A DNA stretch of 64,000 nt from Geminisphaera colitermitum TAV2 (lineage in GTDB: Bacteria; Verrucomicrobiota; Verrucomicrobiia; Opitutales; Opitutaceae), in NCBI RefSeq assembly GCF_000171235.2, contig NZ_ABEA03000176.1, positions 1 to 64,000 on the forward strand, written 5' to 3'. The position numbers and the translations under genes are program-made. Below the pieces are notes generated by a model that was given only the letters and a program-made list of their open reading frames with translations, had not been told where the DNA came from and ran no database searches. Of the stretch, positions 3,456 through 48,507 are shown in pieces; position 1 is the first letter of the stretch, and each line of letters starts with the position of its first letter.

Positions 3456-5087
3456 ATGCCCACCCGCGGACTCCGCCCCTCGTTATTGCCCACGACGCGT
3501 TCCGGCAACTGGCTCGCCAATCTGACGGCAACGGCGGCCACGTTCGTCAGCACCTTTGCCGGGCTCTGGCTGGGGCGCATTCTTTACACGAGCAATCATG
3601 GGGCGGGTTGGGAGGATGTATTCTGGCCGGAAACAGGATGCTCGCTCGCGCTGGTGGCACTGCTCGGATACCGTCGTCTGCCTTGGATGGGACTGGGCAG
3701 CTTGCTGGCTCTCGCGTGCTTTCATCCGCCATCGTTAGCCTGGTTGCTGGCTCCGCTTTTCATGTGTCAGGCGGGGGTCGGATTGTGGGCCATCCGGCGC
3801 ATCCATCCCAACCCTCAATTGCGGCCCAATGTCCGCTCTTACATTGTGGTGGGCGGGGTGGGGGGGATTTTGGTGGCATTGCCGTCTTCGTTGCTGGGAG
3901 TGATGATCCTGCACGGCTCGCCGTTCGTGCATCCTGAATTGTGGCAAAAAACGTTGATCTGGTGGCTGGGCGAGATGAGCAGCGTGATCGTGTTTGTGAT
4001 GCTGGTGCTGATGCCGTTCTCGGTGGAGGCGCGCGCGGACCGGCGCAGGTTGCCGGAGTTTGTGGTTTATGCGGTGGGGCATCTGGTGGGCGCGTGGTTT
4101 GTCTTCACCGGGGATTTGCACGGCAGTCCGAGCGTGCCGGCGTTGTTCCTGATGTTTTCCGCCAGCATCATGATCGCGCTGCGCAATGGTGTGGCGTTGA
4201 GCATCGTGGCCAATGGGTTGTTTTACCTGGTGTCGATCACGGCGCAAATCACGTGGGCGCTCGGTTCGCCGGCGGATTCGACCAACGGGCCGATCATCTT
4301 TGCCCACTGCCTGATGATCGACGTGATCGTCACCAGCCTGATAACGGCGGCGGGCCTCTTCGACCACCGGCGCGCCGAGAATGAACTGCGCGGCGTCTCC
4401 ACGCGTGTGCTCGATGCGCAGGAAGCGGAACGGCGCAGGCTCGCCCGTGACTTGCACGACAGCGTGTGCCAGACGGTGCAGGCGGTCATCATTCGCATTA
4501 AACTGCTCGCCTTTGAAGCGCAGGCGTCCGGAGCGCTCCGAGGGGGGGGGGGGGGGGGGGACGGCTCGGTGTCGGCGAAGGCGTTGCTGCCGTTAACGAA
4601 GGAACTGGACGAGGCGCTCGACGAGTTGCGGCAGAATATCACGGGGCTGCGCCCGGAGACGATTGATCGCAGCGATTTTGCCGGCATCGTGCGCGACCAT
4701 TGCGAGGAGTTTGCCGGGCGGCATCATGTGAATGTCGAGTTGCTCGATGGCGACAGGCTGCCGGTGCTGCCGATCCGGGTGCGCGAACATTTGTTTCGCG
4801 TGTTGCAGGAGTCGCTCGCCAACGCGGTGACGCACGGCGGGGCGAAATCCATCGAGGTCGAGATGCACTGCGAGCGCGGCAAGTTTGTTTTCACGGTGCG
4901 GGACGATGGTCGTGGTTTCGACCCGGCGATCCAGCGTACAGGCCGTCCGCGTTACGGGTTGCGCACGATGCAGGAGCGGGCGTTTTTGATGGGCGGCGTG
5001 TTTTCCATCGAGTCGCGACCGGACCGGGGCGCACTGGTCACGGTGGAGATTCCGCTCGATCAGATGGCGGCGGTGGGCGGCGGTTGA
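3456..5087 (+). CDS. Membrane histidine kinase (MASE1-like sensor, HisKA_3, HATPase)
   Basis: Sensor kinase of 543 residues. The N-terminal ~300 residues contain about eight hydrophobic segments with the look of a MASE1 integral-membrane sensor (FWPETGCSLALVALL). The dimerisation and phosphoacceptor box AERRRLARDLHDSVCQT places the phosphorylated histidine at H334. The ATPase domain has an N-box (ESLANAVTHGGAK), a G1 box (DDGRGFDP) and a G2 region (YGLRTMQERA). A run of 19 G (4542-4560) encodes six glycines between the H-box and the ATPase domain, so a one- or two-base slip would remove the ATP-binding domain. It is likely the partner of the regulator at 2444. The stop is 3 bp from the convergent diguanylate cyclase. 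Confidence 0.92.
   Translation: MPTRGLRPSLLPTTRSGNWLANLTATAATFVSTFAGLWLGRILYTSNHGAGWEDVFWPETGCSLALVALLGYRRLPWMGLGSLLALACFHPPSLAWLLAPLFMCQAGVGLWAIRRIHPNPQLRPNVRSYIVVGGVGGILVALPSSLLGVMILHGSPFVHPELWQKTLIWWLGEMSSVIVFVMLVLMPFSVEARADRRRLPEFVVYAVGHLVGAWFVFTGDLHGSPSVPALFLMFSASIMIALRNGVALSIVANGLFYLVSITAQITWALGSPADSTNGPIIFAHCLMIDVIVTSLITAAGLFDHRRAENELRGVSTRVLDAQEAERRRLARDLHDSVCQTVQAVIIRIKLLAFEAQASGALRGGGGGGDGSVSAKALLPLTKELDEALDELRQNITGLRPETIDRSDFAGIVRDHCEEFAGRHHVNVELLDGDRLPVLPIRVREHLFRVLQESLANAVTHGGAKSIEVEMHCERGKFVFTVRDDGRGFDPAIQRTGRPRYGLRTMQERAFLMGGVFSIESRPDRGALVTVEIPLDQMAAVGGG
4542..4560 (+). repeat. 19-nt G homopolymer inside histidine kinase
   Basis: An uninterrupted run of 19 G lies in the coding region between the phosphoacceptor and ATP-binding domains. 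The kinase is in frame at this length. Tracts like this are known slippage sites in other bacteria; whether it varies here cannot be seen from one sequence. Confidence 0.9.
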
Positions 5088-34569: not shown

Positions 34570-36083
34570 TTACCCGGCAATGATACGCAGCAGGAGCGAC
34601 GGGAACAGACCGAGAAAAATCAGGAGCGCCGTCGCAATGATTAGGGCGATGGCGGCGGGAAGAGGCGTGTGGATGGTCGTCGAAGCGGGGGGGGGGGGGG
34701 ATTGGTCACGAGTGCCTGTTTGAGGATTTGCAGGTAATAGTAGAGGGCGACGGCACTCATGGCGATGGCGAGGATCGCAAGCCAGCCGGTGGGCGAGGCG
34801 AGTCCGGCAGGGCGAAGGGCGGCGGCGAAGAGGTAGAATTTGCCGAAAAATCCGGCGAGCGGAGGGATGCCGGCGAGCGAGAGCACGCAAACAAAGAGGA
34901 TCGCGGCGAGGAAGGGGGAGCGTTTCCAGAGTCCGGCGAGATCGGTGAGGGCGTTGATGGGGCGGGCGGTGGTGGGAGAGTTGTTGGAATCGAGGACGGC
35001 GAGGACGCCGAAAATACCAATCGTGGCGAGGCCGTAGGTGAGAGCGTAGTAAACGGTCGCGCTGGTATCGCCGAGGGCGACGCCGAGGAGCAGGACGCCA
35101 GCGTGCGCAATGGCTGAATACGCGATGAGGCGACGGACGCTGGTCTGCGCAAGCGCTGCTATGTTGCCCAGGAGTATCGAGGCTGCGGATACGAGCAGGA
35201 GAACAGGCAGCCAGCCGGTGAGCGGAGCAAACTGGAGCGCTGCCGGGGCGAGCGCGGTGTGGAGTAAACGGAAAAAGAGGGCGAGTCCGGCGAGTTTGGA
35301 TGCGGATGCGATGAGCGCGGCGGCGGGGGAGGGGGCGCCTTCGTAAACGTCGGGCGCCCAGAGGTGGAAGGGGGCGGCGGCGGCTTTGTAGCCGAAACCA
35401 ACAAGGACCATCACGAGGGCGACGAGGAGGAGTGGCGAGATGCGGGCGGGGGGGGCGAGAGCGGCGGCGATGGCGTCGAACTGGATAGAGCCGGTGAACC
35501 CGTAGATGAGGCTGAATCCAAAGAGGAGGAACGCGGCAGCCATGCCTCCGAAGAGGAAGTATTTGAGTCCGGCCTCGGCGGAGGCGGGGCTGGTTTTGTC
35601 GAGCGCGGCGAGGATGTAGAGCGAGAGGCTGGCAAGTTCGAGGCCGAGGAAGGCGACGAGGAGGTTGTTCGCCACTGCCATGAGCGTGAAGCCCGCCGTG
35701 GCGAGGAGGACGATGGCGGCGTGCTCGGCGGGGTGCGCGTTGCGGTCACGCGAAGGGAGCAGGAAAGTCAGCGCAGCGAGGGCGAGGACGCCGAGGCGGA
35801 TGACGGCGGCGAAGGAGTCGAGGATGAACGCGCCGGGGGGGAGGAGTGTCGGGGAAGGCGAGGCGAAGGTGAGGGTGCAGATGAAAGCAGGAGCGAGGGT
35901 TTGAAACGCAGCCGAGGCGAGCGCGCCAAGGGCAATGGCGGTGGCGGCGGCGAGGCGGGCGCGATCGGAGAGGCGGCGTCCGACGGAAAGGTCGAAGGCG
36001 AGCACGATCAACATGCCGAGTGTCAGCATGATTTCGGGCCGGAGCGCGTGGAGGAGTTCGATGTAGGGATTGGGCGAGGGCAT
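34570..36083 (-). pseudogene. nuoN: NADH-quinone oxidoreductase subunit N, frameshifted at G tract
   Basis: A membrane proton-pumping subunit with about 14 hydrophobic segments, including GFGYKAAAAPFHLWAPDVYEGAP and the lysine-bearing helices typical of NuoN. The frame from the ATG at 36083 runs to a tract of 14 G (34687-34700) and there goes out of register. The true C-terminal helix (LPAAIALIIATALLIFLGLFPSLLL) is in the next frame and ends at 34570. Tract lengths of 12 or 15 would restore one protein. It is the last gene of the nuo operon. Confidence 0.88.
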
Positions 36084-36105: not shown

Positions 36106-37693
36106 TTATTTCAGCGCGGCTTGGAACAGCGGGGACTGGAGCGCGGGATTAATCCAGTTGAGAAGGAGGTCGGGCATCAGGCCGATGATGAGAGTTGTGG
36201 CGATCAGGATGAGCGCGCCGAGTTTTTCGGGGAGCGTGATCGGTGCATAGGTAGGGGCTTCGCTTGCGAAGCCCGAGGGGGGGGGGGGGCAGGGGAGGGA
36301 CATTGGTGTTCGTTGCATCGACGGCGGACGCGGGCTTCGCAAGCGAAGCCCCTACCGGAGAGGTTTTGCCGAAGAATGACACCTGGATTGCGCGCAGGGT
36401 GAAGGCGGCGGCGATGAGGATGCCGATGGCGGCGATCAAGGCCCAGAGGCGGGAGGTTTGCCAGGCGCCGACAAGGATGGAGAGTTCGGCCGGGAATCCG
36501 CTGAAGCCGGGCAGACCCATCGAGGCGAGTCCGGCAATCACGAAGGTCGTTGCGGCAAAGGGCAGCAGGCGGTGCAGGGGCAGGGCGCGGAGGTCGGCGA
36601 GGTTGCGGGTGTGCGTGCGTTCGTAAACCATGCGTCCGACGACGGCGAAGAGGAGTCCGGCGATGATGCCGTGCGAAAACATTTGGAGAACAGCTCCGCT
36701 GAGGGCGCGTTCGTTGGCAGCGGCAAGGCCGAGCAGGACAAATCCCATGTGGCTGACGGAGGAGTAGCCGATGACAAATTTGAAGTCGTCCTGGATGAGC
36801 GCGATGAACCCGGCGTAAACGATACCAATGACGGCGAGCCAGCCGATGAAGGGGGCGAAGGTGTGGTAGCCTTCAACAAAAAGCGGGATGGCAACGCGGA
36901 GGCATCCGTAAGCGCCGAGTTTCATGACGACTCCGGCGAGGAGCATGGAGGCGGCGGTGGGCGCGGCGACGTGTCCGGTGGGCGCCCAGGTGTGGAAGGG
37001 GAACATGCCGGCGAGGACGGCGAATCCAGTGAAGACGAGGGCGAACATGCCGAGTTGTTGCGCGTGACTGAAGTGGGTGGCGGCTTCGGCGAGTTGCGTG
37101 AGCGAGAAGGTTTGAACGGCGTGGGGGGGGGGGAGGGCGGCGGCCGTGGCGTGCGCCCAGAGGAGTCCGGCCATGACGAGGGCGCTGCCGGCGAAGGAGT
37201 AGAGCACAAGTTTCATCGCGCCGTATTCGCGGTTGGTGGAGCCCCATTTCGCCACGAGGAAGTATTTGGGGACGATGGCGATTTCGTAGAAGACGAAGAA
37301 CACAAACGCATCGGCGCTGAGGAACACGCCGTAAACGCCGCCGATGAGCGCGAGGTAGAGCGCGAAAAATTCGCCGGTGCGGTCGGTGATGTTCCACGAG
37401 AAGAGAATGCCCGCGAGCGCGGCAATGGCGGTGAGAACAACAAGCGTGAGGCTGATGCCGTCAGCCGCGAGGTGGTATTGAATGCCGAGTTCGGCAATCC
37501 AGGGGAGGTTGACGAGGGTTTGCGGGTCGGGGGATGGCGTAAATTCGATGGCCGCGAGCGCAACGATGGCAGCGGCAGCAAGTGCTGTAGTGATGGCGAC
37601 GATACGCGCGGCGGCGGGTGAGCGGCGTCCGGCGAGGAGCGTGAGGAGCGCGCCGGCAAGGGAGATGTAGATGGTCCAGGGAAGGAGGTTCAT
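36106..37693 (-). pseudogene. nuoM2: Second NuoM-type pump subunit, frameshifted at G tract in REPIN
   Basis: A proton-pumping antiporter-like subunit. The ATG at 37693 starts a ~14-helix protein with FVFYEIAIVPKYFLVAKWGS (the glutamate of TM5), GMFPFHTWAPTGHVAAPTAASMLLAGVVMKLGAYG and YSSVSHMGFVLLGL, all NuoM-type. A REP pair (36250-36357) is inserted before the last helix and contains 13 G (36277-36289) that break the frame. The correct end (ITLPEKLGALILIATTLIIGLMPDLLLNWI) is in the next frame to 36106. A tract of 12 would rejoin it. It is 22 bp downstream of the first nuoM stop. Confidence 0.88.
36250..36357. repeat. REP pair (REPIN) inside nuoM2
   Basis: Two units containing GGCTTCGCTTGCGAAGCC lie in opposite orientation at about 36255-36275 and 36333-36353, both preceded on the outside by the same GTAGGG word. 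In the nuoM2 frame the first-read unit encodes PVGASLAKPASA. The G tract lies between the units. Confidence 0.9.
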
Positions 37694-37714
37694 CGGGAGA
37701 GGTTTTGCAGCATG

Positions 37715-39307
37715 TCAGCCGAGGAGGGATCGGAAGAGGTTGATGAGGAGTTGCGGCGCGAGGCCGAGAACGAACATCAGGACGATCGCGGGGGCCAGTG
37801 TGAGGATTTCGGTCGCAGTGAGGTCGGTGACGCGTTGGGCATTGGGCGTGACGGGGCCGTGGAAAACGCGTTGCCAGAAGGTGAGCAGGAACAGCGCGGT
37901 GGCGAGGAGGCCGAGCGTGGCAATGGCGGCAACCACGGGTGCAGCACCGAAGACGCCGCGGAAAATCAGAAATTCGCCGACGAAGCCGTTGAGTCCGGGC
38001 AGGCCAAGCGAGGAGAACATCGAGATGCCGCAGAACGCGGCGAAAATCGGGGCGACTTTGCGCACGCCGCCGAAGTCACCCATGCCACGCAGTCCGCCGG
38101 TGCGGTTCTCCAAAATGCCGATGCAATAAAAGAGCGCGGCGGCAGAGAGGCCGTGGTTGAACATTTGCAGGATCATGCCGGTGAGGGCGGCGGTGAATGT
38201 TTGGCTTGTGGAGGGAAGATGGTCGGCGGCGATTACGAAGGCGAAGAAGGCGAGCAGGCAGTAGCCAAGGTGGTTGATCGAGGAGTAGGCGATCATGCGT
38301 TTGAGGTCGCGCTGGCGGAGCGCGGCAAAGGCTCCGAAAACGACACCCGCAAGCGCGAACCAGATGAGGATGGGAGCGGTGATGATGAGTTCTATCGGGA
38401 AAATGGACCAGAGAATGCGGATGAAACCGTAGAGTCCCATTTTGGACATGATGGCGGTGAGAAATATGGACGCACCGGTCGGGGCTGCGGCATAGGCGGA
38501 GGGAAGCCACGTGTGAAAGGGAAACAGCGGAACTTTTACGGCCAAACCGAGGAGCACTCCGAAAAACACCAGCATGGGCAGCGCGGGGGAAACCGCGGCG
38601 AGTTTGTCAGCGAGTTTGTCGCTGCTGAAAAGGTGGAATTGGAGTTCTTCAAAATTGAGCGTGCCGGTGACGGCGTAAATGGCGGCGAAGGAGAGCAACA
38701 TGAAGGCGCTGCCGCCCATCGTGTAGATGACAAATTGATACGCGGCACGAGAAGCGTTGCCGGGACGGGTGTCGCCGTTGGAGTCGGTATCGTTGCCGTA
38801 AAGTTTTGTGAGGAAAAACGCGGGGAAGAGGCTGAGTTCCCAAAAGAGAAACCAGAGGAAGAAATCTTGCGCGAGGAAGACGCCGAGCGCCGCGCCTTGA
38901 ATGGTGAGAAAGAGTATGCCGGGAAGCCGGGGGGGGGGGGGGGGAAGGGATGTCGCGGACGTTGCGGGGCTGCGCCATGTGGCGGCGAGAGACATGGGCG
39001 CAATGAGGCCGGTGAGTAAAACGAGAACGAGCGAGATGCCGTCAATGCCGAGTGTGTAGTTGATATTTAATGGCGCGATCCATGTGTGCCGTTCGGCGAG
39101 TTGAAGGGTGCCTGCGGCGGCGGTGTCGAATGCGGGCAGGACAGCAGCGAGGGTGAGCGCGAGCGTCGAGAGGCTGAACACGAACGCAATGAGGCGGGTG
39201 GTGCGATGTCCGGCGGGCGAACGCGAGAGTTGCGGCAACGCGGCGAGCAGGAGCGCGCCAATCCACGGAACGAAAATGATGAGAGAGAGAAGCGGGACGT
39301 TGGTCAT
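37715..39307 (-). CDS. nuoM: NADH-quinone oxidoreductase subunit M (first copy)
   Basis: A membrane proton-pumping subunit of complex I, 530 residues. WFLFWELSLFPAFFLTKLYG contains the TM5 glutamate; PLFPFHTWLPSAYAAAPTGASIFLTAIMSKMGLYGFIRI contains the TM7-8 lysine region, with SSINHLGYCLLAFFA further on. A run of about 14 G in the plus strand (38930-38943) encodes PPPPP in a loop ([14 protein letters not shown]) and is in frame. An inverted-repeat element separates it from nuoL. Confidence 0.95.
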   Translation of the reverse strand: MTNVPLLSLIIFVPWIGALLLAALPQLSRSPAGHRTTRLIAFVFSLSTLALTLAAVLPAFDTAAAGTLQLAERHTWIAPLNINYTLGIDGISLVLVLLTGLIAPMSLAATWRSPATSATSLPPPPPRLPGILFLTIQGAALGVFLAQDFFLWFLFWELSLFPAFFLTKLYGNDTDSNGDTRPGNASRAAYQFVIYTMGGSAFMLLSFAAIYAVTGTLNFEELQFHLFSSDKLADKLAAVSPALPMLVFFGVLLGLAVKVPLFPFHTWLPSAYAAAPTGASIFLTAIMSKMGLYGFIRILWSIFPIELIITAPILIWFALAGVVFGAFAALRQRDLKRMIAYSSINHLGYCLLAFFAFVIAADHLPSTSQTFTAALTGMILQMFNHGLSAAALFYCIGILENRTGGLRGMGDFGGVRKVAPIFAAFCGISMFSSLGLPGLNGFVGEFLIFRGVFGAAPVVAAIATLGLLATALFLLTFWQRVFHGPVTPNAQRVTDLTATEILTLAPAIVLMFVLGLAPQLLINLFRSLLG

Positions 39308-39317
39308 GTTGTCGTTT

Positions 39318-39422
39318 TATTGGGTCACGCAGAGACGCGGAGACGCAGAGGAAGGCAGAATCATTGCAGAAAGATCGTTCAAAATTTCAACACTCTGCGT
39401 CTTTGCGTCTCTGCGTGAGCCT
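39318..39422. repeat. CACGCAGAG inverted-repeat element without ORF
   Basis: Arms GTCACGCAGAGACGCGGAGA on the left and the complement of GCTCACGCAGAGACGCAAAG on the right enclose about 45 bp. The arms match those that bracket the GxxExxY gene at 41473-41943. It lies in the nuoL-nuoM gap. Confidence 0.85.
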
Positions 39423-39444
39423 TGATTGTGTAGTGTATTGGAAA

Positions 39445-41463
39445 TCATAGTACACCTCCCAAGATCAGGGTGACGACGATCAGGGCGACAAAGCCGAGGG
39501 CGAGGCCGGTCAGGGAAACGCGGGCGTCGCCGGTTTGCGTGCGGGAATAGGCGCGGGCCGTCGTGCGGAGGGCGTCGGTCGTGGCGTCGAAACTGCCGTT
39601 GATGTTCACTTCGTCGGTGTCGCGTGTGACGCCTCCGGTAAAGCAGGCGAGTCCGGCAAGGGCGCGAATCGCTCCGCCCCAGATCCAGCGGTCAGCAAAG
39701 TCGGACAGCGCGGCGGCGATGGTCGTGAAGCGTCCGACGGTGGCGGCGTAAAGTTCGTCGATGTAGAGGCGGTGGGCGAAGGCGTTGAAGAGGCCGGGCG
39801 CGACGCGTTCGACGGGGTCGGGCGCGGTGGCGTTGTCGTGTCCGCGTTGGATGCGGGAGCGGCGGGCGTAGATGGCAAGTCCGGAGCCGATGCCGATGGC
39901 GACGAGCGCGATGGAGGTCAGCATGAGGCCCGTGCCTTCGTCGAAAATGCCGTGGCCGTGGACTTCGGCGCGGCCTTCGAGCATCGCCTGCAACCAGGGC
40001 CAGGCAGGTGTGCCGAGGAAGCCGAGGGCGATGGCGCAGATCGCGAGGAGGACGAGGGGGAGCGTCATCGAGAGTGGGTTTTCGTGCGCGTGTTCGGCGG
40101 CGTGGGTGCGGGGTCTTCCCATAAACACCTCGGCGACGAGGCGCGTCATGTAGAAGGCGGTGAGGATGACGGCGGCGAGCGCGGCGAGGAAGGGGAGTTG
40201 CGAAACGGGCCATGCGTGCGCGCCGTGCAGGATGGCTTCTTTGGACCAGAAGCCGGAGAATACGAAGGGAACGCCAGCGAGCGCCATCATGCCGATGGCA
40301 AAGGTGGCGAAGGTGAGTTTCATGCGCGGGGCGAGTCCGCCGAGTTTGCGGATGTCTTGCTCGTGGTGGGCGGCGTGGATGACGGAACCGGCTCCGAGGA
40401 AGAGGAGGGCTTTGAAGAAGGCGTGCGTGAGGAGGTGAAAGATGGCGGCGGGCCAGGCTCCGACGCCAATGGCAAGCATCATGTATCCGAGTTGTGATAC
40501 AGTGGAGTAGGCGAGGACGCGTTTGATGTCGTTTTGGGCGGTTGCGAGAATTGCGCCGAAGAGGGCGGTGATGGCTCCGATGGTGGCAATGACTGCAAGG
40601 GCGTCGGGCGTAAGGAGGGGTTGGATACGCGCCATGAGGAACACGCCTGCCGCCACCATGGTTGCGGCGTGGATGAGGGCGGAGACGGGCGTGGGGCCTT
40701 CCATGGCGTCGGGAAGCCAGACGTGGAGGGGGAACTGGCCGGATTTGCCGACGGCTCCGCAGAAGATGAGCAGGCCGATGGCGGTCGAGACGGCGAGTCC
40801 GCCGGGGAGGGCGAGGGCAGCGAGCGAACCGAGTTGCGTGGTTTCGAGGAAGCCCGCGCCGTTGTCGTAGAAGAGGAGGGTGTCGGTCGCGGAGTGAAGC
40901 CAGAGGATGCCGAGAAGGAAACCGAGGTCGCCGATGCGGGTGACGATGAAGGCTTTTTTCGCGGCGGCGGCGGCGGATGGTTTTTCAAACCAGAATCCGA
41001 TGAGGAGGTAGGAGGCGAGTCCGACGAGTTCCCAGCACACGAAGAGGAGCAGCAGGCTGTTGGAAATGAGGAGGCCGAGCATCGCGGCGGCGAAGAGGCT
41101 GAGGTAACAGAAGAATTTCCCGTAGCGCGGGTCGTCCTTCATGTATCCGGTGCTGAAAAGGAAAATCAGGAAGCCGACGAAGGTAACCATCACGAGCATG
41201 AAGGCGGTGAGGGGATCAAGGAGGAGGCTGAGGGGCAGCTTGAGCGCGCCGGCGTTGATCCAGTCGAGGGTGGCGGTGGCGTGGGCGGCGGGACTGGCGA
41301 GGGCTTCACGTAGTGATAGACAGGATACGACGAAGGCGGCAGCCATTGCGGCGAGCGCAGCGGTGGAGGCCAGGCGGCTGCGCGCGGAGGTGAACACACC
41401 GATGACGCAGGCAGCGAGGGGAAGCGCAGGGATAAGCCAGAGATGCGGGACAAGGGTTGGCAT
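39445..41463 (-). CDS. nuoL: NADH-quinone oxidoreductase subunit L with lengthened lateral helix
   Basis: The distal proton-pumping subunit of complex I, 672 residues against about 610 in E. coli. The core is standard (FVCWELVGLASYLLIGFWFEKPSAA, GKSGQFPLHVWLPDAMEGPTPVSALIHAATMVAAGVF, STVSQLGYMMLAIG, THAFFKALLFLGAGSVIHA). From DELY to the QTG that precedes the last membrane helix I count 77 residues; the same span is about 48-53 in typical NuoL proteins known to me. The extra 24-29 residues fall in the amphipathic helix that braces the pump subunits. This fits accommodation of the extra NuoM encoded downstream. Confidence 0.94.
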   Translation of the reverse strand: MPTLVPHLWLIPALPLAACVIGVFTSARSRLASTAALAAMAAAFVVSCLSLREALASPAAHATATLDWINAGALKLPLSLLLDPLTAFMLVMVTFVGFLIFLFSTGYMKDDPRYGKFFCYLSLFAAAMLGLLISNSLLLLFVCWELVGLASYLLIGFWFEKPSAAAAAKKAFIVTRIGDLGFLLGILWLHSATDTLLFYDNGAGFLETTQLGSLAALALPGGLAVSTAIGLLIFCGAVGKSGQFPLHVWLPDAMEGPTPVSALIHAATMVAAGVFLMARIQPLLTPDALAVIATIGAITALFGAILATAQNDIKRVLAYSTVSQLGYMMLAIGVGAWPAAIFHLLTHAFFKALLFLGAGSVIHAAHHEQDIRKLGGLAPRMKLTFATFAIGMMALAGVPFVFSGFWSKEAILHGAHAWPVSQLPFLAALAAVILTAFYMTRLVAEVFMGRPRTHAAEHAHENPLSMTLPLVLLAICAIALGFLGTPAWPWLQAMLEGRAEVHGHGIFDEGTGLMLTSIALVAIGIGSGLAIYARRSRIQRGHDNATAPDPVERVAPGLFNAFAHRLYIDELYAATVGRFTTIAAALSDFADRWIWGGAIRALAGLACFTGGVTRDTDEVNINGSFDATTDALRTTARAYSRTQTGDARVSLTGLALGFVALIVVTLILGGVL

Positions 41464-41469
41464 GGATGG

Positions 41470-41943
41470 ATTCTAATTTGTGTCACGCAGAGACGCAGAG
41501 GCGCAGAGCTGCGGAGATGCAGAGGATGAGAGATTATTGGCGATGCGTTTGATGCCGTCTTTGATGAGAGGGGCTCCGAAATTGATGAGCAGTCCGAGTC
41601 GGTAATCGAGAAGACGGAGATAGGTGAGGAGTTGTTTGGAGTGAACGGGGGCGAGGGTTTCGGCAGACTTGAGTTCGACGACGATGCAATCGTTGACGAC
41701 AAGGTCAGCGCGAAAGCCTTCATCGAACCGGAGATCGTCCCATTCGATGGGGATGGGTTTCTGACGTTCAACCTTGAGGTTCAGTTGGGCAAGTTCACGG
41801 GAGAGGATGGTTTCATACACACTTTCCAGTAATCCTGGTCCCAGTCTGGAATGTATCCGATAGGCGGCATCGACGATCTGTCCGGAAATGTGATTTAATG
41901 CATTTTCACTCTGCGTCTCTGCGTCTCTGCGTGAGGTTTGCAT
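41470..41943. mobile_element. Putative GxxExxY mobile unit with CACGCAGAG ends
   Basis: Inverted arms CACGCAGAGACGCAGAG (from 41484) and CTCTGCGTCTCTGCGTGAG (to 41937) delimit the GxxExxY gene exactly. A gene-less version with the same arms lies 2.1 kb away (39318-39422). This arrangement suggests an autonomous unit and a derivative, but no transposase chemistry is established for it. Confidence 0.6.
41473..41943 (-). CDS. GxxExxY family protein inserted in the nuo operon
   Basis: 156 residues. The GLLESVY sequence (in SRLGPGLLESVYETILSREL) gives the GxxExxY name, followed by FRADLVVNDCIVVELKSAE, which has the D-x(n)-ExK layout of PD-(D/E)XK nucleases, and LTYLRLLDYRLGLLINFG. The first codons (MQTSRRDAETQSE) and the last (LCASASLRDTN) are encoded by the flanking CACGCAGAG repeats. 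It fits between nuoK (12 bp) and nuoL (9 bp) without disturbing either. Its function is not known; it is not a complex I subunit. Confidence 0.88.
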   Translation of the reverse strand: MQTSRRDAETQSENALNHISGQIVDAAYRIHSRLGPGLLESVYETILSRELAQLNLKVERQKPIPIEWDDLRFDEGFRADLVVNDCIVVELKSAETLAPVHSKQLLTYLRLLDYRLGLLINFGAPLIKDGIKRIANNLSSSASPQLCASASLRDTN

Positions 41944-41955
41944 TGTTTCAGTGGT

Positions 41956-42318
41956 TTAGCCTTTGAGCGCGGTTGCGTCTTGCAGGCGGATGGCGCGGCG
42001 GTGGCGGTAGAGGGCGATGATGAGGGCGAGGCCGACCGCGGCTTCGGCGGCGGCGATGGCGATGCTGAATATCACAAAGACAACGCCGGTGGCGGGCGAG
42101 GCTGCAGAGGCTCCGGCGGCTCCGGCATCAAAACCGTGCCGCCAGAAGGCGATGAAGTTGATGTTGGCAGCATTGAGCATGAGTTCGATGCCGAGCAGGA
42201 CGAGAATTGCACTGCTGCGGGCAAGGGCGGTTGTCAGGCCGATGGTAAAGAGCGCCGCCGAAAACAGGAGGCTGAGGTGCAGCGGACTGGCGAGGAGATC
42301 GGAAAGGCTGGTGATCAT
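41956..42318 (-). CDS. nuoK: NADH-quinone oxidoreductase subunit K
   Basis: A small complex I membrane subunit, 120 residues from the ATG at 42318, which starts 1 bp after the nuoJ stop. Three helices are present, with the conserved glutamate in SSAILVLLGIELMLNAANINFIAF and a second in AAAEAAVGLALIIALYR. The longer open frame upstream overlaps nuoJ and is not used. Confidence 0.95.
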   Translation of the reverse strand: MITSLSDLLASPLHLSLLFSAALFTIGLTTALARSSAILVLLGIELMLNAANINFIAFWRHGFDAGAAGASAASPATGVVFVIFSIAIAAAEAAVGLALIIALYRHRRAIRLQDATALKG

Positions 42319-42319
42319 G

Positions 42320-42856
42320 TCAGCGAGTGGTGCGCGCGTCGCGGGGTTTGTCGGTGGCGGCGAGGAGGATGGAACCGAGGAGCGCAACGGTCAGGAGCGC
42401 GCCTGTGATGAGGACCGCGGCGGCGTGCTCGCCGGTGAGCGCGTGGCCGAGGTCTTTTATTGTGAGGGAGGGGGGGGGGGGGGCGTCAGAGGCAAGGGCT
42501 GCGGAGTCGGGGGAGGGGAGGGCGGTGCAGAGAATCGCGGCGAAGATCATGGCGGCGACGGCTCCGCCAGCAGCGACAGCCCAGTTGAGGCGGCGACGGG
42601 TGGCGGGTTCTTCGGCGGGATCGTCGGGCGCGCGACGGGTGAGGACGACGGCAAAAAGAACCACCATCGAGATTGCACCGACATAAACGAGGACCTGGGC
42701 AAAGGCCACGAACTCGGCTCCGGCCCAGAGATAAAAGGCGGCAATGCCGATCCATGCGGGGACGAGGAAAATCGCGGATCGAATGATATTGCGCAACGAG
42801 AGCGCAGCCGCGGCGGTGACGAGCGTAAATGCGGCGATGAGAAGGAGTGTGAGCAT
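42320..42856 (-). CDS. nuoJ: NADH-quinone oxidoreductase subunit J
   Basis: A complex I membrane subunit of 178 residues with five helices. LSLRNIIRSAIFLVPAWIGIAAFYLWAGAEFVAFAQVLVYVGAISMVVLFAVVL covers the conserved TM2-TM3 region with the pi-bulge helix. A G tract (about 42472-42483) encodes APPPP in a loop and is in frame. Confidence 0.95.
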   Translation of the reverse strand: MLTLLLIAAFTLVTAAAALSLRNIIRSAIFLVPAWIGIAAFYLWAGAEFVAFAQVLVYVGAISMVVLFAVVLTRRAPDDPAEEPATRRRLNWAVAAGGAVAAMIFAAILCTALPSPDSAALASDAPPPPSLTIKDLGHALTGEHAAAVLITGALLTVALLGSILLAATDKPRDARTTR

Positions 42857-42990: not shown

Positions 42991-44181
42991 TCAGGCGTAG
43001 CGGTAGGTGCGGGGGCCGAGGCCGGCGCTGAGGCGGCGGGCGAGGAGGACATACGGGATGACGACGAGCGCAAGGGGGAGGAGCCAGCGGAGGGCGAGGA
43101 GCGGGCCGGTCCAGGCGGGAGTGAGGAGCCAGAGGGCGGCGGCGCCGAGGTTGAGGAGGGCGAGGGGAATCAGGAATTTCCACGCGAGTTTCAGGAGTTG
43201 GTCCATGCGCAGGCGCAGGAGCGTGGCGCGCGCCCAGATGAAGAGCATCATGCAGGCGATGAGTTTGATGCCGAACCAGGCGTAGCTGGGGATGAATTGC
43301 AGGAATTCGCAGGGGGCCTGCCAGCCGCCAAGGAAAAGGGTCACGCCGAGTCCGGCGAGGGCGGTCATGCCGAAGTATTCGCCCATGAAAAAGAGCGCGT
43401 ATTTGAATCCTGAATACTCGGTGAGGTGTCCGGCGATGATTTCGCTTTCGGCTTCGGGGAGGTCGAATGGGCAGCGGTTGGTTTCGGCAAGGGCGGCGAT
43501 GAGGAAAATGGGCGCGGCGGCGAGTCCCCAGGGGGTGAAGAGGTTCCAGTGAGGGAGGAGTCCGCCGAGGCTCCAGGCTCCTTGCGCGGTGACAATGCCG
43601 GGGAGCGAGAGGGTGCCGGCGGCCATGACGGCGGGGATGGCGACGAGGAGGAGGGGGAGTTCGAAGCTGATGAGTTGCGCGAGGGCGCGCATGGCGGAGA
43701 TGAGCGAGTATTTGTTATGGCTGGACCAGCCGGCCATGAAGATGGCGAGTTCGGTGGCGGCTCCGGCTGCGAAGAAATAGAGGATGCCTGCGTCGAGGTT
43801 GAGCGCGGTGAGGTGGAGTCCGCAGGGGATGACGGCGAAGCCGAGGAGCGCGAAAAAGACAGCGCAGCAGGGGGCGAGGAAGTGGAGCAGCTTGTCGGCG
43901 GTGGCGGGGATGAGGTCTTCCTTGGTGAGGGCTTTGACGGCGTCGGCAAAGGGTTGCATGTAGCCGAAGGGGCCGGTGCGGTTGGGGCCATAGCGGTTTT
44001 GGAAGCGGCCAAGGACTTTGCGCTCGGTGACGGTGAAGAGCGCGAAGAAGAGTCCGAAGACGGCAAGTATTGCGATGATGGATACGAGCGAGGTGGCAAG
44101 CCAGCGGAGAAAAACGGCGTCGGACGGGAAGAGGGCGTCGAGAAACCAGTCGCGCAGGGTGATGGGAAGTGTTTCGAGCAT
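42991..44181 (-). CDS. nuoH: NADH-quinone oxidoreductase subunit H
   Basis: The quinone-chamber membrane subunit of complex I, 396 residues. TVTERKVLGRFQNRYGPNRTGPFGYMQPFADAVKALTKED is the universal NuoH signature; AETNRCPFDLPEAESEIIAGHLTEYSGFKYALFFMGEY carries the conserved acidic loop at the quinone channel. FIWARATLLRLRMDQLLKLAWKFLIPLAL forms the C-terminal end. It follows the inserted RAYT gene. Confidence 0.97.
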   Translation of the reverse strand: MLETLPITLRDWFLDALFPSDAVFLRWLATSLVSIIAILAVFGLFFALFTVTERKVLGRFQNRYGPNRTGPFGYMQPFADAVKALTKEDLIPATADKLLHFLAPCCAVFFALLGFAVIPCGLHLTALNLDAGILYFFAAGAATELAIFMAGWSSHNKYSLISAMRALAQLISFELPLLLVAIPAVMAAGTLSLPGIVTAQGAWSLGGLLPHWNLFTPWGLAAAPIFLIAALAETNRCPFDLPEAESEIIAGHLTEYSGFKYALFFMGEYFGMTALAGLGVTLFLGGWQAPCEFLQFIPSYAWFGIKLIACMMLFIWARATLLRLRMDQLLKLAWKFLIPLALLNLGAAALWLLTPAWTGPLLALRWLLPLALVVIPYVLLARRLSAGLGPRTYRYA

Positions 44182-44198: not shown

Positions 44199-44837
44199 TT
44201 AATGTAGGGGCTTCGCTTGCGAAGCCCGCGAAGGGCTAATCAAATTTCCGCTGGGTGTACGAGTGCGCGCGTGAGTGTGAATTTCGTCGAAGCGTGATTC
44301 ATAATTACGATGCCACTCGACCGGCGGGACTCCATTGGGTGAGAGGTGTTGTGTGAACTGAAACCGGGATGGTGAGGGAATCCAAGAGTGAGGCCACGTA
44401 TCGGAAGCAGACCGTAGGTGGGCACGCCAAGGATTGAGAAAAGTATAGAGAGCGTATGTCTCATGGTCTTCATCGGGGCGCAGTCGATGTTCCCAAAAGT
44501 CTCGCTGCCATTGGTTGGCGGGGTTAGTGGCTTGGCGGATTTGGAATTTCCAGTGGGCTACGCATTGCCCAACAGTGAGTCGGGGGCCGGAAAGTGAAAA
44601 AAGGATGTGCAAGTGATCAGGCATGCAGGTTGCGATCTCGATCATCCAATCACCAGCATCGTGACCGGTTTGTAGGATACGGATAGCCGCTTGTGCGTTG
44701 TCAGGAGTCGCAAGCCAGGGTGTGCGGTCGTGCGTAATAAACGTGACAAAATAACGGGTTTCCGGACGCGAAACTCGACCGAGACGAAGGTTGTCCGTTT
44801 GACGAACGGGACGCAGCGGTTTGCAGGTGATCGTCAT
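44199..44837 (-). CDS. REP-associated tyrosine transposase (RAYT) inside nuo operon
   Basis: 212 residues of the IS200-related Y1 transposase family. YFVTFITHDR forms the first strand; the metal-binding HxH is in MPDHLHILFSLSG; GQCVAHWKFQIRQATN and QRDFWEHRLRPDEDHETYALYTFLNPWRAHL complete the catalytic region, with the tyrosine likely in ALYTFLNP. REP units lie at both ends, the downstream one forming its own last codons (RASQAKPLH). The ATG overlaps the nuoI stop (ATGA), so it is translationally coupled within the operon. RAYTs are domesticated enzymes that spread REP sequences. Confidence 0.9.
   Translation of the reverse strand: MTITCKPLRPVRQTDNLRLGRVSRPETRYFVTFITHDRTPWLATPDNAQAAIRILQTGHDAGDWMIEIATCMPDHLHILFSLSGPRLTVGQCVAHWKFQIRQATNPANQWQRDFWEHRLRPDEDHETYALYTFLNPWRAHLRSASDTWPHSWIPSPSRFQFTQHLSPNGVPPVEWHRNYESRFDEIHTHARTRTPSGNLISPSRASQAKPLH
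44203..44230. repeat. REP unit at RAYT 3' end
   Basis: GTAGG followed by the palindrome GGCTTCGCTTGCGAAGCC and GCG. The same unit in opposite orientation flanks the other side of the transposase gene. Confidence 0.88.
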
Positions 44838-45505
44838 GCGGGAGGGGAAGATGGCGATGTGCCACTAGCAACGGAAGACAATGGAGGTGTTGGAGTGGAG
44901 GGGTGAGCGGGTGCCGAAGCGGCTGGCGCGGGCTTCGCAAGCGAAGCCCCTACACGGGCTTTGGCGGCGGCGGCGCGTTCCTCGGCTTTGCGTTTGGCTT
45001 CGGCTAACGCGGCATCGACGGCGGCGGCTTCGGTGGGGTGGATCTGATTGTAGTAGGCGTTGGACTTGGCGAGTTGGTCGCGGTGGACGAGGAGGTCTTC
45101 GTAGCGGTTGTTCGCCGTGATCTCGTAGTGGTGGTCCATTTTTATCGAGTCGAAGGGACACGACTCGGCGCAGAGGCCGCAGCCCATGCAGACGGAAAAA
45201 TCGATGTCGAATATCGCGGGTTTTTTGAGGGCTTTGCCTTTCTCGTCACGCTCGGGGACGATGTAGATGCACTGCGGAGGGCATTCTTTTTCGCAGATTT
45301 TGCAGGCGACGCAGCGAAGGCCTTCAATGGGGCTTTTCCCCTCAATCTCGTCGAACACGAGGAAGGGGAAGCTGCGAAAGTTTTCGGGGAGCGTGGTGCG
45401 CTGTTCGGGGTATTGAACAGTGGTGAGGCGGCGCGGGTCGTGATAACTGCCAGCGAAATTTTTGGCGGTGACGACGAGACCTTTCAATATGCCGGTGCCG
45501 AACAT
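44834..45505 (-). CDS. nuoI: NADH-quinone oxidoreductase subunit I with REP-encoded tail
   Basis: The peripheral-arm ferredoxin-like subunit carrying two [4Fe-4S] clusters (N6a, N6b). The cysteine motifs are CVACKICEKECP and CMGCGLCAESCP. The normal domain ends near residue 160 (YYNQIHPTEAAAVD); a ~60-residue low-complexity tail follows, containing GASLAKPAPAA encoded by a REP unit at 44926-44953. It lies 21 bp after nuoD and overlaps the RAYT start. Confidence 0.95.
   Translation of the reverse strand: MFGTGILKGLVVTAKNFAGSYHDPRRLTTVQYPEQRTTLPENFRSFPFLVFDEIEGKSPIEGLRCVACKICEKECPPQCIYIVPERDEKGKALKKPAIFDIDFSVCMGCGLCAESCPFDSIKMDHHYEITANNRYEDLLVHRDQLAKSNAYYNQIHPTEAAAVDAALAEAKRKAEERAAAAKARVGASLAKPAPAASAPAHPSTPTPPLSSVASGTSPSSPPA
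44926..44953. repeat. REP unit inside nuoI 3' end
   Basis: GCGGGCTTCGCAAGCGAAGC followed by CCCTAC: the RAYT-flanking REP in the orientation opposite to 44203-44230. It is read in frame by nuoI as GASLAKPA. Confidence 0.88.
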
Positions 45506-45526: not shown

Positions 45527-46687
45527 TTAGCGGTCCACCTCGCCGAGGACGATGTCCACGCTGCCGAGGGTGATGACGGCGTCGGCGAGGGTGCCGCCGA
45601 TGCACATGTCTTCGAGGATGGTGAGGTTGATGAGCGAGGGGGGGCGGATGCGGTAGCGGTAGGGCTGCGGGCTGCCGTCGCTGATGAGATGGAAGCCGAG
45701 TTCGCCTTTGGGGGCTTCAATGCGGGCGTAGGCTTCGCCGGGTTTGGGACGGAGGCCGCGGGACTTGGCTTTCGGGTCGGTGACGGGGCCGGCGGGGATG
45801 TCGCGCAGGGCTTGTTGCAGGATTTTGAGCGACTCGCGCATTTCGAGCATGCGCATCATGTAGCGGTCGTAGGTATCGCCGTGCGCGCCGAGGGGGACGC
45901 GAAAATCGAAGCGGTCGTAAATGGAATACGTATCCACTTTCCGGATATCATAGGGGACGCCGCTGGCGCGGAGCATGGGGCCGGTGATGCCGGCGTTGAT
46001 GGCGAGCGCGGCGGGGAGTACGCCGGCGCCTTGCGTGCGGGCGAGGAGGATTTCGTTGGTGGTGAGGAGGGCGTCCTGTTCGTCGAGGTAACGGGCGAAG
46101 TCGTTTTCGAGGTAGGTTTTTAACTTGGCGAGCCACTCGGGGCTGAGGTCAGCGCGGACGCCGCCAAAGCGCATGTAGTTGCACATCATGCGGGAGCCGG
46201 TGAGCTCTTCGATGAGGTCGAGCATGTGTTCGCGTTCGCGGAGGGAGTAGAGGAGGGGGGTGAAGGAGGTGCCGAGGTCGTTGAGGAGGAAACCGACGAG
46301 GCAGGCGTGGTTGATGAGGCGGGCGAGTTCGCCGACGATGACGCGGACGTATTCGCCTCGTTCGGGGACGGTGAGGCCGGCGAGTTTTTCGACGGCGTGG
46401 ACGTAGGCCCAGTTGTTGGTGAGCGAGGAGAGGTAATCGAGGCGGTCGGTGTAGGGGATGCTGGCGAGGTAGGTGGTGTTCTCGGCGAGTTTTTCGTGGT
46501 TGCGGTGGAGGTAGCCGAACACGGGTTTGAGTTTGACGATGATTTCGCCATCGAGCGTGGCGACCATCCGGAAGACGCCGTGCGTGGAGGGGTGGTGCGG
46601 CCCCATGGAGACTTCGAGGAGGTCGCCGTGGTAGGGGTCGTTGACAGGGCGGACGACGGGAATGTGAGACGGGGCGGTGGTGGTCAT
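45527..46687 (-). CDS. nuoD: NADH-quinone oxidoreductase subunit D
   Basis: The 49-kDa quinone-site subunit of the peripheral arm, 386 residues from the ATG at 46687, which overlaps the nuoC stop (ATGA). MGPHHPSTHGVFRMVATLDGE holds the conserved quinone-site histidine loop; YTDRLDYLSSLTNNWAY carries the tyrosine; PKGELGFHLISDGSPQPYRYRIRPPSLINLTIL and DIVLGEVDR form the C-terminus. The longer upstream frame is antisense noise over nuoC. Confidence 0.97.
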   Translation of the reverse strand: MTTTAPSHIPVVRPVNDPYHGDLLEVSMGPHHPSTHGVFRMVATLDGEIIVKLKPVFGYLHRNHEKLAENTTYLASIPYTDRLDYLSSLTNNWAYVHAVEKLAGLTVPERGEYVRVIVGELARLINHACLVGFLLNDLGTSFTPLLYSLREREHMLDLIEELTGSRMMCNYMRFGGVRADLSPEWLAKLKTYLENDFARYLDEQDALLTTNEILLARTQGAGVLPAALAINAGITGPMLRASGVPYDIRKVDTYSIYDRFDFRVPLGAHGDTYDRYMMRMLEMRESLKILQQALRDIPAGPVTDPKAKSRGLRPKPGEAYARIEAPKGELGFHLISDGSPQPYRYRIRPPSLINLTILEDMCIGGTLADAVITLGSVDIVLGEVDR

Positions 46688-47379
46688 GCGGTGGCCTCCG
46701 TGGTGGTTTGCGGATAGTGGGTTTTGGCCCGGGTGAGCACTTCGTCGTGCGGGGTGGGTTCCCATTCGTAGTCGTCGGGGGAGATGTAGTCTTTGCGCAT
46801 GGGGTGGTCTTTGAATTCGTCCCACATGAGGAGTCGGCGGAGGTCGGGGTGGCCTTCGAAATGGATGCCGTAGAGGTCAAAGATTTCGCGTTCCTGGAGT
46901 TCGCAGGAGCGCCAGACCGGGGTCAGCGAGGGGACGGTTGTGGCGTCGGTGCGGTTGGCAGTGCGGAGGCGGAGAATGACGGGGGCAGTGGTTTTACGGG
47001 CGATGGAGTAGAGGTGATAAACGGCTTCGAGGCAACCGGCGTCGGGGGGGGGGAGGGGGGCGGCTTCGCCGCAACGTCGAACGTCCAACGTCGAACGTCC
47101 AACATCCAATGCGGAAGAGGAGGGAGGAGCGGGAGGCGCGGTTTTTGGGGCGGGTTTCGCGGGCCAGTCGATGCCGGTGACGTTGGAGCAGTAGTCGTAG
47201 CGCGTAGAGGGATCGTCGCGGAGGAAGGTTGCTATCTCGCGGGCGCGGGGGTGCGCGGCGGCAGTGATGAGGAGGCTGTGTTGCGCGGAGGGGCCGGGGT
47301 TGTTGACGAGTTCGAGGGCGTCGGCGCCGAAGCGTTCGGCGAGGCGGGCGTGGAGTTGGTCGAGTGATTCGGTTTCCAT
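46684..47379 (-). CDS. nuoC: NADH-quinone oxidoreductase subunit C with decamer-repeat insertion
   Basis: The 30-kDa peripheral subunit, 231 residues. EAVYHLYSIARK, ELQEREIFDLYGIHFEGHPDLRRLLMWDEFKDHPMRKDY is the family signature. Between VTGIDWPAK and LEAVYHLYS lies an extra ~40-residue segment including SSSALDVGRSTLDVRRCGEA, encoded by decamer repeats (47073-47108) and a G-rich run. In usual NuoC these two strands are joined directly, so this is an in-frame insertion in a surface loop. It follows nuoB by 2 bp. Confidence 0.94.
   Translation of the reverse strand: METESLDQLHARLAERFGADALELVNNPGPSAQHSLLITAAAHPRAREIATFLRDDPSTRYDYCSNVTGIDWPAKPAPKTAPPAPPSSSALDVGRSTLDVRRCGEAAPLPPPDAGCLEAVYHLYSIARKTTAPVILRLRTANRTDATTVPSLTPVWRSCELQEREIFDLYGIHFEGHPDLRRLLMWDEFKDHPMRKDYISPDDYEWEPTPHDEVLTRAKTHYPQTTTEATA
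47073..47108. repeat. Decamer repeats inside nuoC
   Basis: Tandem CGTCGAACGT/CCAACGTCGA-type units followed by CCAACATCCAATG. The same words occur at 11488, 47986, 48081, 51461 and 51586. Confidence 0.85.
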
Positions 47380-47381
47380 TG

Positions 47382-48122
47382 TCAGGCGCGGGGGAGGGGG
47401 GGGGAGGGTTTCCAGACGGCGGGATTGTGCGTGGGAACGAGGTCGTGTTCGCCGTATTCGGGGACGGGATACACACCGTCGTTGTCATTGCGGAGGTGGC
47501 GGGGGCGGCCGGGACCGGTGAGTTTTTCGGCGCGCATTTTTTTCTGGAGTTCGATGAGGCCGTTGAGGAGGGCTTCGGGACGGGGGGGGCAGCCGGGGAT
47601 GTAAACGTCAACGGGGATGAAGCGGTCCACGCCTTTGAGGACGTTGTAGCCTTGCTTGAAGGGGCCGCCGGAGATGGAGCACGCGCCCATGGCAATGCAG
47701 TATTTGGGCTCGGCCATCTGGTTCCAAATGCGGACGACTTGCGGCGCCATTTTTTTGGTGACGGTGCCGGAGACGATCATGAGGTCGGCCTGACGCGGGG
47801 AGGCGCGGAAGATTTCGGCGCCGAAGCGGGCGATGTCAAAGCGGGCGGCGGCAACGGCAATCATCTCGATGGCGCAGCAGGCGAGGCCGAATTGCAGGGG
47901 CCAGATGGAGTTGGTGCGGCCCCAGTTGTAGATGTCGTTGAAGGTGGTGAGCAGGATGCCTTGCTGACGGAGGGACTGCGCTTCGCGAACGTCCAACGTC
48001 GAACATCCAACGTCCAACGTCGAAGTGGTTGGTGAGGCATCCGAGGCGTCCTGTTTTTGATCCTGCTGCCGGTTTTGATTCATTGGATGTTCGATGTTGG
48101 GCGTTCGATGTTGGGCGTTCAC
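47382..48122 (-). CDS. nuoB: NADH-quinone oxidoreductase subunit B with repeat-derived N-terminus
   Basis: The PSST subunit that holds the N2 [4Fe-4S] cluster. Its cysteines are visible as the tandem pair in GLACCAIEM, one in [11 protein letters not shown] and one in [11 protein letters not shown]. The conserved domain begins near [28 protein letters not shown]. The first ~50 residues are encoded by two oppositely oriented decamer-repeat blocks (47986-48021 and 48081-48120). Possible starts are the ATG at 48122 (7 bp after nuoA) and the ATG at 48083; which is used is unclear. Confidence 0.94.
47986..48120. repeat. Inverted pair of decamer-repeat blocks at nuoB 5' end
   Basis: Left block: CGAACGTCCAACGTCGAACA and further units. 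Right block: the complementary ATTGGATGTTCGATGTTGGG type. They enclose about 60 bp and lie almost entirely in the nuoB coding frame. Confidence 0.85.
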
Positions 48123-48129
48123 GGCGTGG

Positions 48130-48507
48130 TTATTTCCATTCGAGGTGTCCGCGTTGCCAGGCCCAGACGAGGCCCTCGGCGAGGAGCAGGATGAAGGCGA
48201 GAATCACAAACAACGCCCCCATCGGCAGGCCGGTGAAAGTGACGGCGACGGGGAGCAAAAAAAGAACCTCTACGTCGAAGATCAAAAAGAGGATCGCGTA
48301 GAGGTAATAGTGGGCGCGGAACTGAATCCACGAATCGCCTTTGGACGGGAGGCCACATTCATAGATGGCGTTTTTCTCCCGGCCGGGTTTGGGGGGCTGG
48401 AATGTTTTGAACCAGATTTGCGCGACGAGAATCAGGGCCAGCGGGAAGATCGCAGCGATGGCAACGAACAACGCGAGGAACGCGTAAGGGTGGTCTGTGG
48501 CGGTCAT
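48130..48507 (-). CDS. nuoA: NADH-quinone oxidoreductase subunit A
   Basis: A small complex I membrane subunit of 125 residues, the first gene of the operon. Three helices are present, with [45 protein letters not shown] containing the conserved ECG and FDVE motifs. No nuoE, nuoF or nuoG follows or precedes. Confidence 0.96.

Follow-up and report, generated by a model that had tools for sequence, protein, structure and literature searches.

We analyzed a window of 64,000 nucleotides from Geminisphaera colitermitum TAV2 (NCBI RefSeq assembly GCF_000171235.2, contig NZ_ABEA03000176.1, positions 1 to 64,000). Its minus strand carries an operon for a respiratory complex I between positions 48507 and 34571, with the gene order nuoA, B, C, D, I, H, J, K, L, M1, M2, N. 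From its gene content, the operon is predicted to encode a complex I of the type with two NuoM subunits (2M), consisting of the subunits A, B, C, D, H, I, J, K, L and N together with both NuoMs. The first NuoM gene, nuoM1 (37715-39307; TIGR01972/NDH_I_M, E = 1e-129), adjoins nuoL (39445-41463; TIGR01974, E = 2e-182, above the cut-off), while the second, nuoM2 (36106-37693; TIGR01972/NDH_I_M, E = 8e-124), adjoins nuoN (34571-36083; TIGR01770, E = 2e-107). The original prediction, which was made from the sequence of the window, had called two tandem NuoM-type genes besides nuoL and nuoN, and both of these genes indeed match NDH_I_M and are located between nuoL and nuoN. It had also placed the end of nuoM2 at position 36106; the conserved C-terminus does reach this position, but the single assembled frame stops at 36149.

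The remainder of the operon contains nuoA (48130-48507), identified by BLASTP against relatives in conserved 2M operons and 90% identical to its counterpart in the same-genus genome G014, nuoB (47382-48122; 90% identity with G014 over the core), nuoC (46684-47379; recognized by comparison with the G014 operon) and a separate nuoD (45527-46825; PF00346, 89% identity with G014), the start of which is possibly internal. These are followed by nuoI (44834-45505; TIGR01971, E = 5e-27), which codes for a ferredoxin-type subunit with two 4Fe-4S clusters, nuoH (42991-44181; NF004741, above the cut-off), nuoJ (42320-42856; NF005168, E = 3e-26) and nuoK (41956-42387; NF004322, E = 5e-25).

The NuoL protein has a lengthened lateral helix, with 70 residues between the DELY (residues 569-572) and QTG (residues 643-645) motifs, or 77 if counted inclusively, which is the figure given originally. 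By the same count, there are 41 residues in NuoL of Escherichia coli, 45 in the second NuoL of the genome (on C105), and 44 to 51, nearly all 44 to 46, in the 28 short-helix NuoL rows. The excess of 25 to 29 residues corresponds to about 37 to 44 angstroms at 1.5 angstroms per residue, in line with the earlier estimate of 24 to 29 residues and about 40 angstroms. An AlphaFold model built on 30 aligned NuoLs, with a mean predicted local distance difference test (pLDDT) score of 86, contains helices at residues 565-610 and 614-643, followed by the last membrane helix at 647-668, with modest confidence at 600-643 (pLDDT of about 55-66). The model thus places the extra residues within a predicted lateral helix at residues 565-643 (39535-39771), which would include two tandem 26-residue units at approximately 589-614 and 615-640. 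The solved NuoL/ND5 chains listed in a structure search with this model could be aligned only up to about residue 612-618, and the search therefore has no bearing on longer helices.

We compared the NuoL protein to its relatives at 80 loci. The gene order L-M1-M2-N was found for 37 NuoL rows, including that of the window, in Verrucomicrobia, Acidobacteria and Chloroflexi, and all of these have a helix length of 70 to 73 residues, a range that includes the NuoL studied here. The M1 gene was present in 19 of the 57 genomes of the same family and order, the genome of the window included. In quick trees of NuoL and NuoM, inferred without bootstrap, the NuoL of the window clustered with 2M loci of Verrucomicrobia and Acidobacteria in a well-supported group. 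In the NuoM tree, which comprised 113 proteins, the 38 first copies all formed a single clade (support 99), near the NuoMs of clusters that combine a long helix with a single NuoM, while all 38 second copies, Chloroflexi included, grouped together (support 75) near the canonical NuoMs of Verrucomicrobia. The two groups were separated by a branch with a support of 97, and the first and second NuoMs of the Chloroflexi loci fell into the same two clades as M1 and M2 of the window. A recent tandem duplication of nuoM was ruled out by the position of the copies on opposite sides of this branch and by an identity of only about 35% between M1 and M2. Based on these sequence comparisons, M1 and M2 are representatives of two ancient NuoM subfamilies.

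As far as the cited accounts describe it, the 2M complex I (Chadwick et al., 2018) has a second NuoM beside the first, an insertion of about 26 residues in the lateral helix of NuoL and the gene order L-M-M-N (PMC9040806, PMC6606698, PMC7117926, PMC11636273), and all of these features are shared by the operon in the window. The conservation of the L-M1-M2-N order across three phyla and the longer lateral helix bear out the four-pump-type cassette that had been proposed for this locus, and the operon joins the published 2M complex I rather than representing a new kind. Clusters of this kind are known but uncommon, and this one is found in the Opitutaceae (Verrucomicrobia). Transcription of a 2M cluster has been reported for Acidobacterium capsulatum (PMC11636273). 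The 2M form of Nitrospira (clade 3) is without nuoH, nuoE and nuoF, and its nuoG is enlarged (PMC6606698), whereas the cluster in the window has retained nuoH and is devoid of nuoG. The canonical 14-subunit complex I, as represented by Nuo of E. coli and by the cluster on C105 of the same genome, has the same subunit families and conserved pump residues in NuoL and NuoN, but differs in having one NuoM, a short helix and the nuoEFG genes.

A long helix was also identified at 11 loci with one NuoM per cluster, in Zixibacteria, Ignavibacteria, KSB1, Armatimonadetes, Bacteroidetes, Omnitrophota, Planctomycetes and Actinomycetes. A genome search showed that the gene sets in these genomes fit L-M-N triplets; for example, the L, M and N genes are each present twice in the complete genome behind locus L079, spread over two clusters. 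A comparable oddity has been recorded for Manganitrophaceae (PMC9040806). Helix length is thus ruled out as a sufficient diagnostic of the 2M type, and the long helix alone is no proof of a fourth pump. Among these single-NuoM complexes (L053, L054, L059, L062, L079, L083), the helix length is 70 as in the window and a 26-residue repeat is clearly visible, no nuoEFG genes are located between nuoD and nuoH where this interval is measurable, again as in the window, and the sole NuoM is of the K-type and clusters with M1 in the tree. At an offset of 26 residues, the 11 long-helix single-NuoM NuoLs had a mean BLOSUM score of 0.62, as compared to -0.92 (sd 0.09) in shuffled sequences, and the 37 2M NuoLs had a mean score of -0.36, as compared to -0.98 (sd 0.05) in shuffles. 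The period is weak in the NuoL of the window taken alone. This internal period suggests that the NuoL extension probably originated when a segment of the helix was duplicated in tandem. One additional locus, L052 (9634-11631), falls in the 2M clade with a short helix and one canonical NuoM, and was considered as a natural reversion. Its NuoL shifts abruptly in the middle of the gene from 97-100% identity with a 2M NuoL to canonical sequence; the locus represents either a recombinant or a chimera of the assembly, and it was rejected and not used.

These patterns also allow a reading in which the long helix is independent of the number of pumps. The 26-residue repeat would then have been born in complexes with one K-type NuoM, and the 2M enzyme would join two ancient NuoM subfamilies, a K-type M1 next to NuoL and a lysine-less M2 next to NuoN. 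We regard this as possible, although doubtful. If true, the extra subunit would be a mechanistically different module, free of the lysine in transmembrane helix 7 (TM7), and the published model of a fourth identical pump and a fifth proton would need revision.

The pump residues of the two NuoMs were examined in E. coli numbering (E144, K234, K265, H322, H348 and E407). The first copies retain all six residues, and a model of M1 from the window has a pLDDT of 92. In the second copies, the TM7 lysine K234 is replaced by leucine or threonine in 38 of 38 proteins, with the other checked residues kept except for one asparagine at K265. The M2 of the window has a leucine at this position, a change that was repeated in an independent phmmer alignment, and keeps E144, K265, H322, H348 and E407. 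In E. coli NuoM, E144 and K234 form the ion pair of a proposed electrostatic-wave mechanism (PMC9271201). The loss of the lysine, as well as the occurrence of the helix extension without a second NuoM at the 11 loci of several phyla, would be expected if M2 (or M1) were a structural spacer or a regulator, such that the stoichiometry stays at about four protons per two electrons. The TM7 lysine is, however, also replaced by leucine in the canonical NuoM of the same genome (L129, on C105) and in most canonical NuoMs of Verrucomicrobia, so its absence alone does not indicate a dead pump. M2 need not be inactive, since the whole NuoM subfamily, the canonical NuoM included, is without this lysine. 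The five retained pump residues and the strong conservation of M2 described below also speak against a spacer, which we consider rather unlikely. Every checked pump residue was conserved in the NuoL and NuoN of the window. The rule that each antiporter subunit is the same pump is nevertheless not safe.

No nuoE, nuoF or nuoG gene was identified in the cluster of the window, nor between nuoD and nuoH in any of the 24 2M loci with both genes on the contig. The interval between nuoD and nuoH in these loci is 38 to 966 bp, which leaves space for nuoI alone, as compared to 3.5 to 6.1 kb in canonical clusters of Verrucomicrobia. The only NuoF of the genome is encoded on C105, in the canonical complex I cluster. 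Genes for pyruvate:ferredoxin oxidoreductase (PFOR) or 2-oxoacid:ferredoxin oxidoreductase (KOR) were located within 10 kb at 7 of the 40 2M-clade loci and at 0 of 39 other loci (Fisher p = 0.006; the rows are not independent and kinship is uncorrected). Four further Opitutaceae genomes have PFOR or KOR genes near the 2M operon; in two of them, korAB immediately follows nuoN on the same strand, and in the other two a full-length PFOR gene is located at most 6 kb away. Among the 57 relatives, a gene of the POR family was present in all 19 genomes with 2M and in 24 of the 38 others (p = 0.001, kinship uncorrected). The lack of nuoEFG in the cluster and the recurrent PFOR and KOR neighbors suggest that ferredoxin is the electron donor, or the product if the enzyme runs in reverse. 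Exchange of electrons between 2M complexes and ferredoxin has previously been proposed (PMC6606698, for Nitrospira; PMC9040806). To regard the enzyme as a higher-yield NADH dehydrogenase is probably wrong, given that the cluster has no nuoEFG and the sole NuoF belongs to the other complex I, and a ferredoxin-driven or reverse-running enzyme fits better.

The 2M complex might still operate as a five-proton NADH dehydrogenase if it borrowed NuoE, NuoF and NuoG from the canonical complex I. The single nuoEFG set on C105 could serve both complexes, and the 2M clusters of Nitrospira and Acidobacterium have been called NADH dehydrogenases (PMC6606698, PMC11636273). Against this stand the lack of nuoEFG in all 24 2M clusters with a measurable interval and the recurrence of PFOR and KOR genes next to 2M operons. 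There is also an energetic argument: by textbook potentials, and assuming menaquinone as the acceptor, the energy released from NADH to menaquinone would be too small to move five protons at a normal proton-motive force. Borrowing is therefore unlikely. As for nitrogen fixation, two nifH genes above the curated cut-off were found in the genome of the window (G000:C21:54-872 and C222:57385-58203), and their presence alongside a PFOR-size gene speaks for the ferredoxin-linked explanation. Nitrogenase was rejected as a systematic partner of the 2M enzyme, with nifH above the cut-off in 8 of the 57 genomes, only some of which have 2M.

Two genes in the operon are broken as assembled. The nuoM2 gene changes frame at a C13 tract (36277-36289), with the C-terminus up to 36106 in the second frame, and nuoN is split at a C14 tract (34687-34700). 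Two other genes, both on the minus strand and outside the enzyme, are inserted in the operon: a REP-associated tyrosine transposase (RAYT) gene between nuoI and nuoH (44199-44837; NF047646, above the cut-off) and a gene of the GxxExxY family between nuoK and nuoL (41473-41943; TIGR04256, E = 5e-41). The REP sequence GGGGCTTCGCTTGCGAAGCCC occurs as an inverted pair within nuoM2 (36254-36351), with further copies at 44207, 44929 and 31233, which place it at the RAYT gene as well as within the 3' end of nuoI (44929). Neither this REP sequence nor the RAYT and GxxExxY genes were found in the operon of G014. The breaks, the repeats and the insertions could together mean that the operon is decaying in this strain and that no complete 2M complex is made, but we find this improbable. 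The remaining genes are all open, the sequence beyond the two breaks continues to match the relative's C-terminus, and both broken genes are open in G014, with 506 and 505 residues, respectively. Moreover, the window contains about 30 poly-G/C runs of 8 to 20 bases (e.g., at 4542, 18031, 25332, 29278, 34687, 36277, 38929, 42470, 50701 and 51202), several of which are poly-proline inserts in coding loops, and 2,685 overlapping G14 matches were counted in the genome, as compared to 5 in G014 and 0 in four family members. This proliferation could be phase-variable or partly assembly error, and the tract lengths are uncertain in an assembly of 225 contigs. Since such tracts are found genome-wide, an assembly error at the two sites is as likely as real damage. 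The ratio of nonsynonymous to synonymous substitutions (dN/dS) relative to G014 was 0.12-0.27 for all twelve nuo genes and 0.12-0.23 for the membrane-arm genes, with 0.20 for M1 and 0.12 for the portion of M2 before the frame break. With 91% identity to G014, M2 is among the best conserved subunits. The membrane-arm genes are thus, by their divergence, under purifying selection; dN/dS indicates long-term selection and is no measure of present function or very recent decay.

Taken as a whole, the best explanation, which we consider fairly probable, is a 2M-type complex I with two NuoMs, without an NADH module of its own, that takes electrons from ferredoxin and may perform an extra pumping step. 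Reduced ferredoxin, produced by PFOR or KOR, would donate electrons that pass from NuoI to NuoB and to the quinone at NuoD/NuoH, and the energy would be transmitted from NuoN via M2 and M1 to NuoL, with the lengthened NuoL helix spanning and clamping the additional subunit. The drop from ferredoxin to a low-potential quinone would be larger than that from NADH and could pay for a further pumping step, while at a high proton-motive force the enzyme may run in reverse and supply reduced ferredoxin, e.g., to nitrogen fixation. Several observations weigh against this explanation: no PFOR or KOR gene is present in the window and the PFOR-size gene of the genome is on another contig, M2 has lost K234, 11 clusters have the long helix with one NuoM, nuoM2 and nuoN are frame-broken in the assembly, the canonical NuoEFG could be borrowed, and the literature search turned up no biochemical work on a 2M complex. 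The gene-level claim stands, and the higher proton yield proposed with it is hypothetical, as is a fifth proton per two electrons.

Whether the proton stoichiometry of complex I rises with the number of its antiporter-like subunits is an unsettled issue in bioenergetics, and the clearest test that nature offers is the 2M complex I. A culturable genus whose cells have both a canonical and a 2M enzyme would be a good place for such a measurement. Two cautions are added here, namely that four-pump enzymes cannot be recognized from the length of the helix alone, and that the two NuoMs differ from each other, as members of different subfamilies with different TM7 chemistry.

A four-antiporter arrangement is likewise found in the green complex I of rhizobia, in which two MrpD-like subunits replace NuoL (PMC9040806); its extra subunit is not a NuoM and its cluster is different. 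The operon in the window is not of this type, as it has one NuoL, which scores above the TIGR01974 cut-off. Another member of the Opitutaceae has a complex I cluster (L137; G042:C52, 2106-7347) that resembles the green complex I, with one NuoM and two NuoL-like genes, and three genomes (G019, G034 and G026) seemingly hold a related NuoM besides a 2M operon. Finally, a region elsewhere in the genome of the window (L131; G000:C109:10000-24000) contains NuoB-, NuoD- and antiporter-like genes, and perhaps encodes a membrane-bound hydrogenase-type complex.

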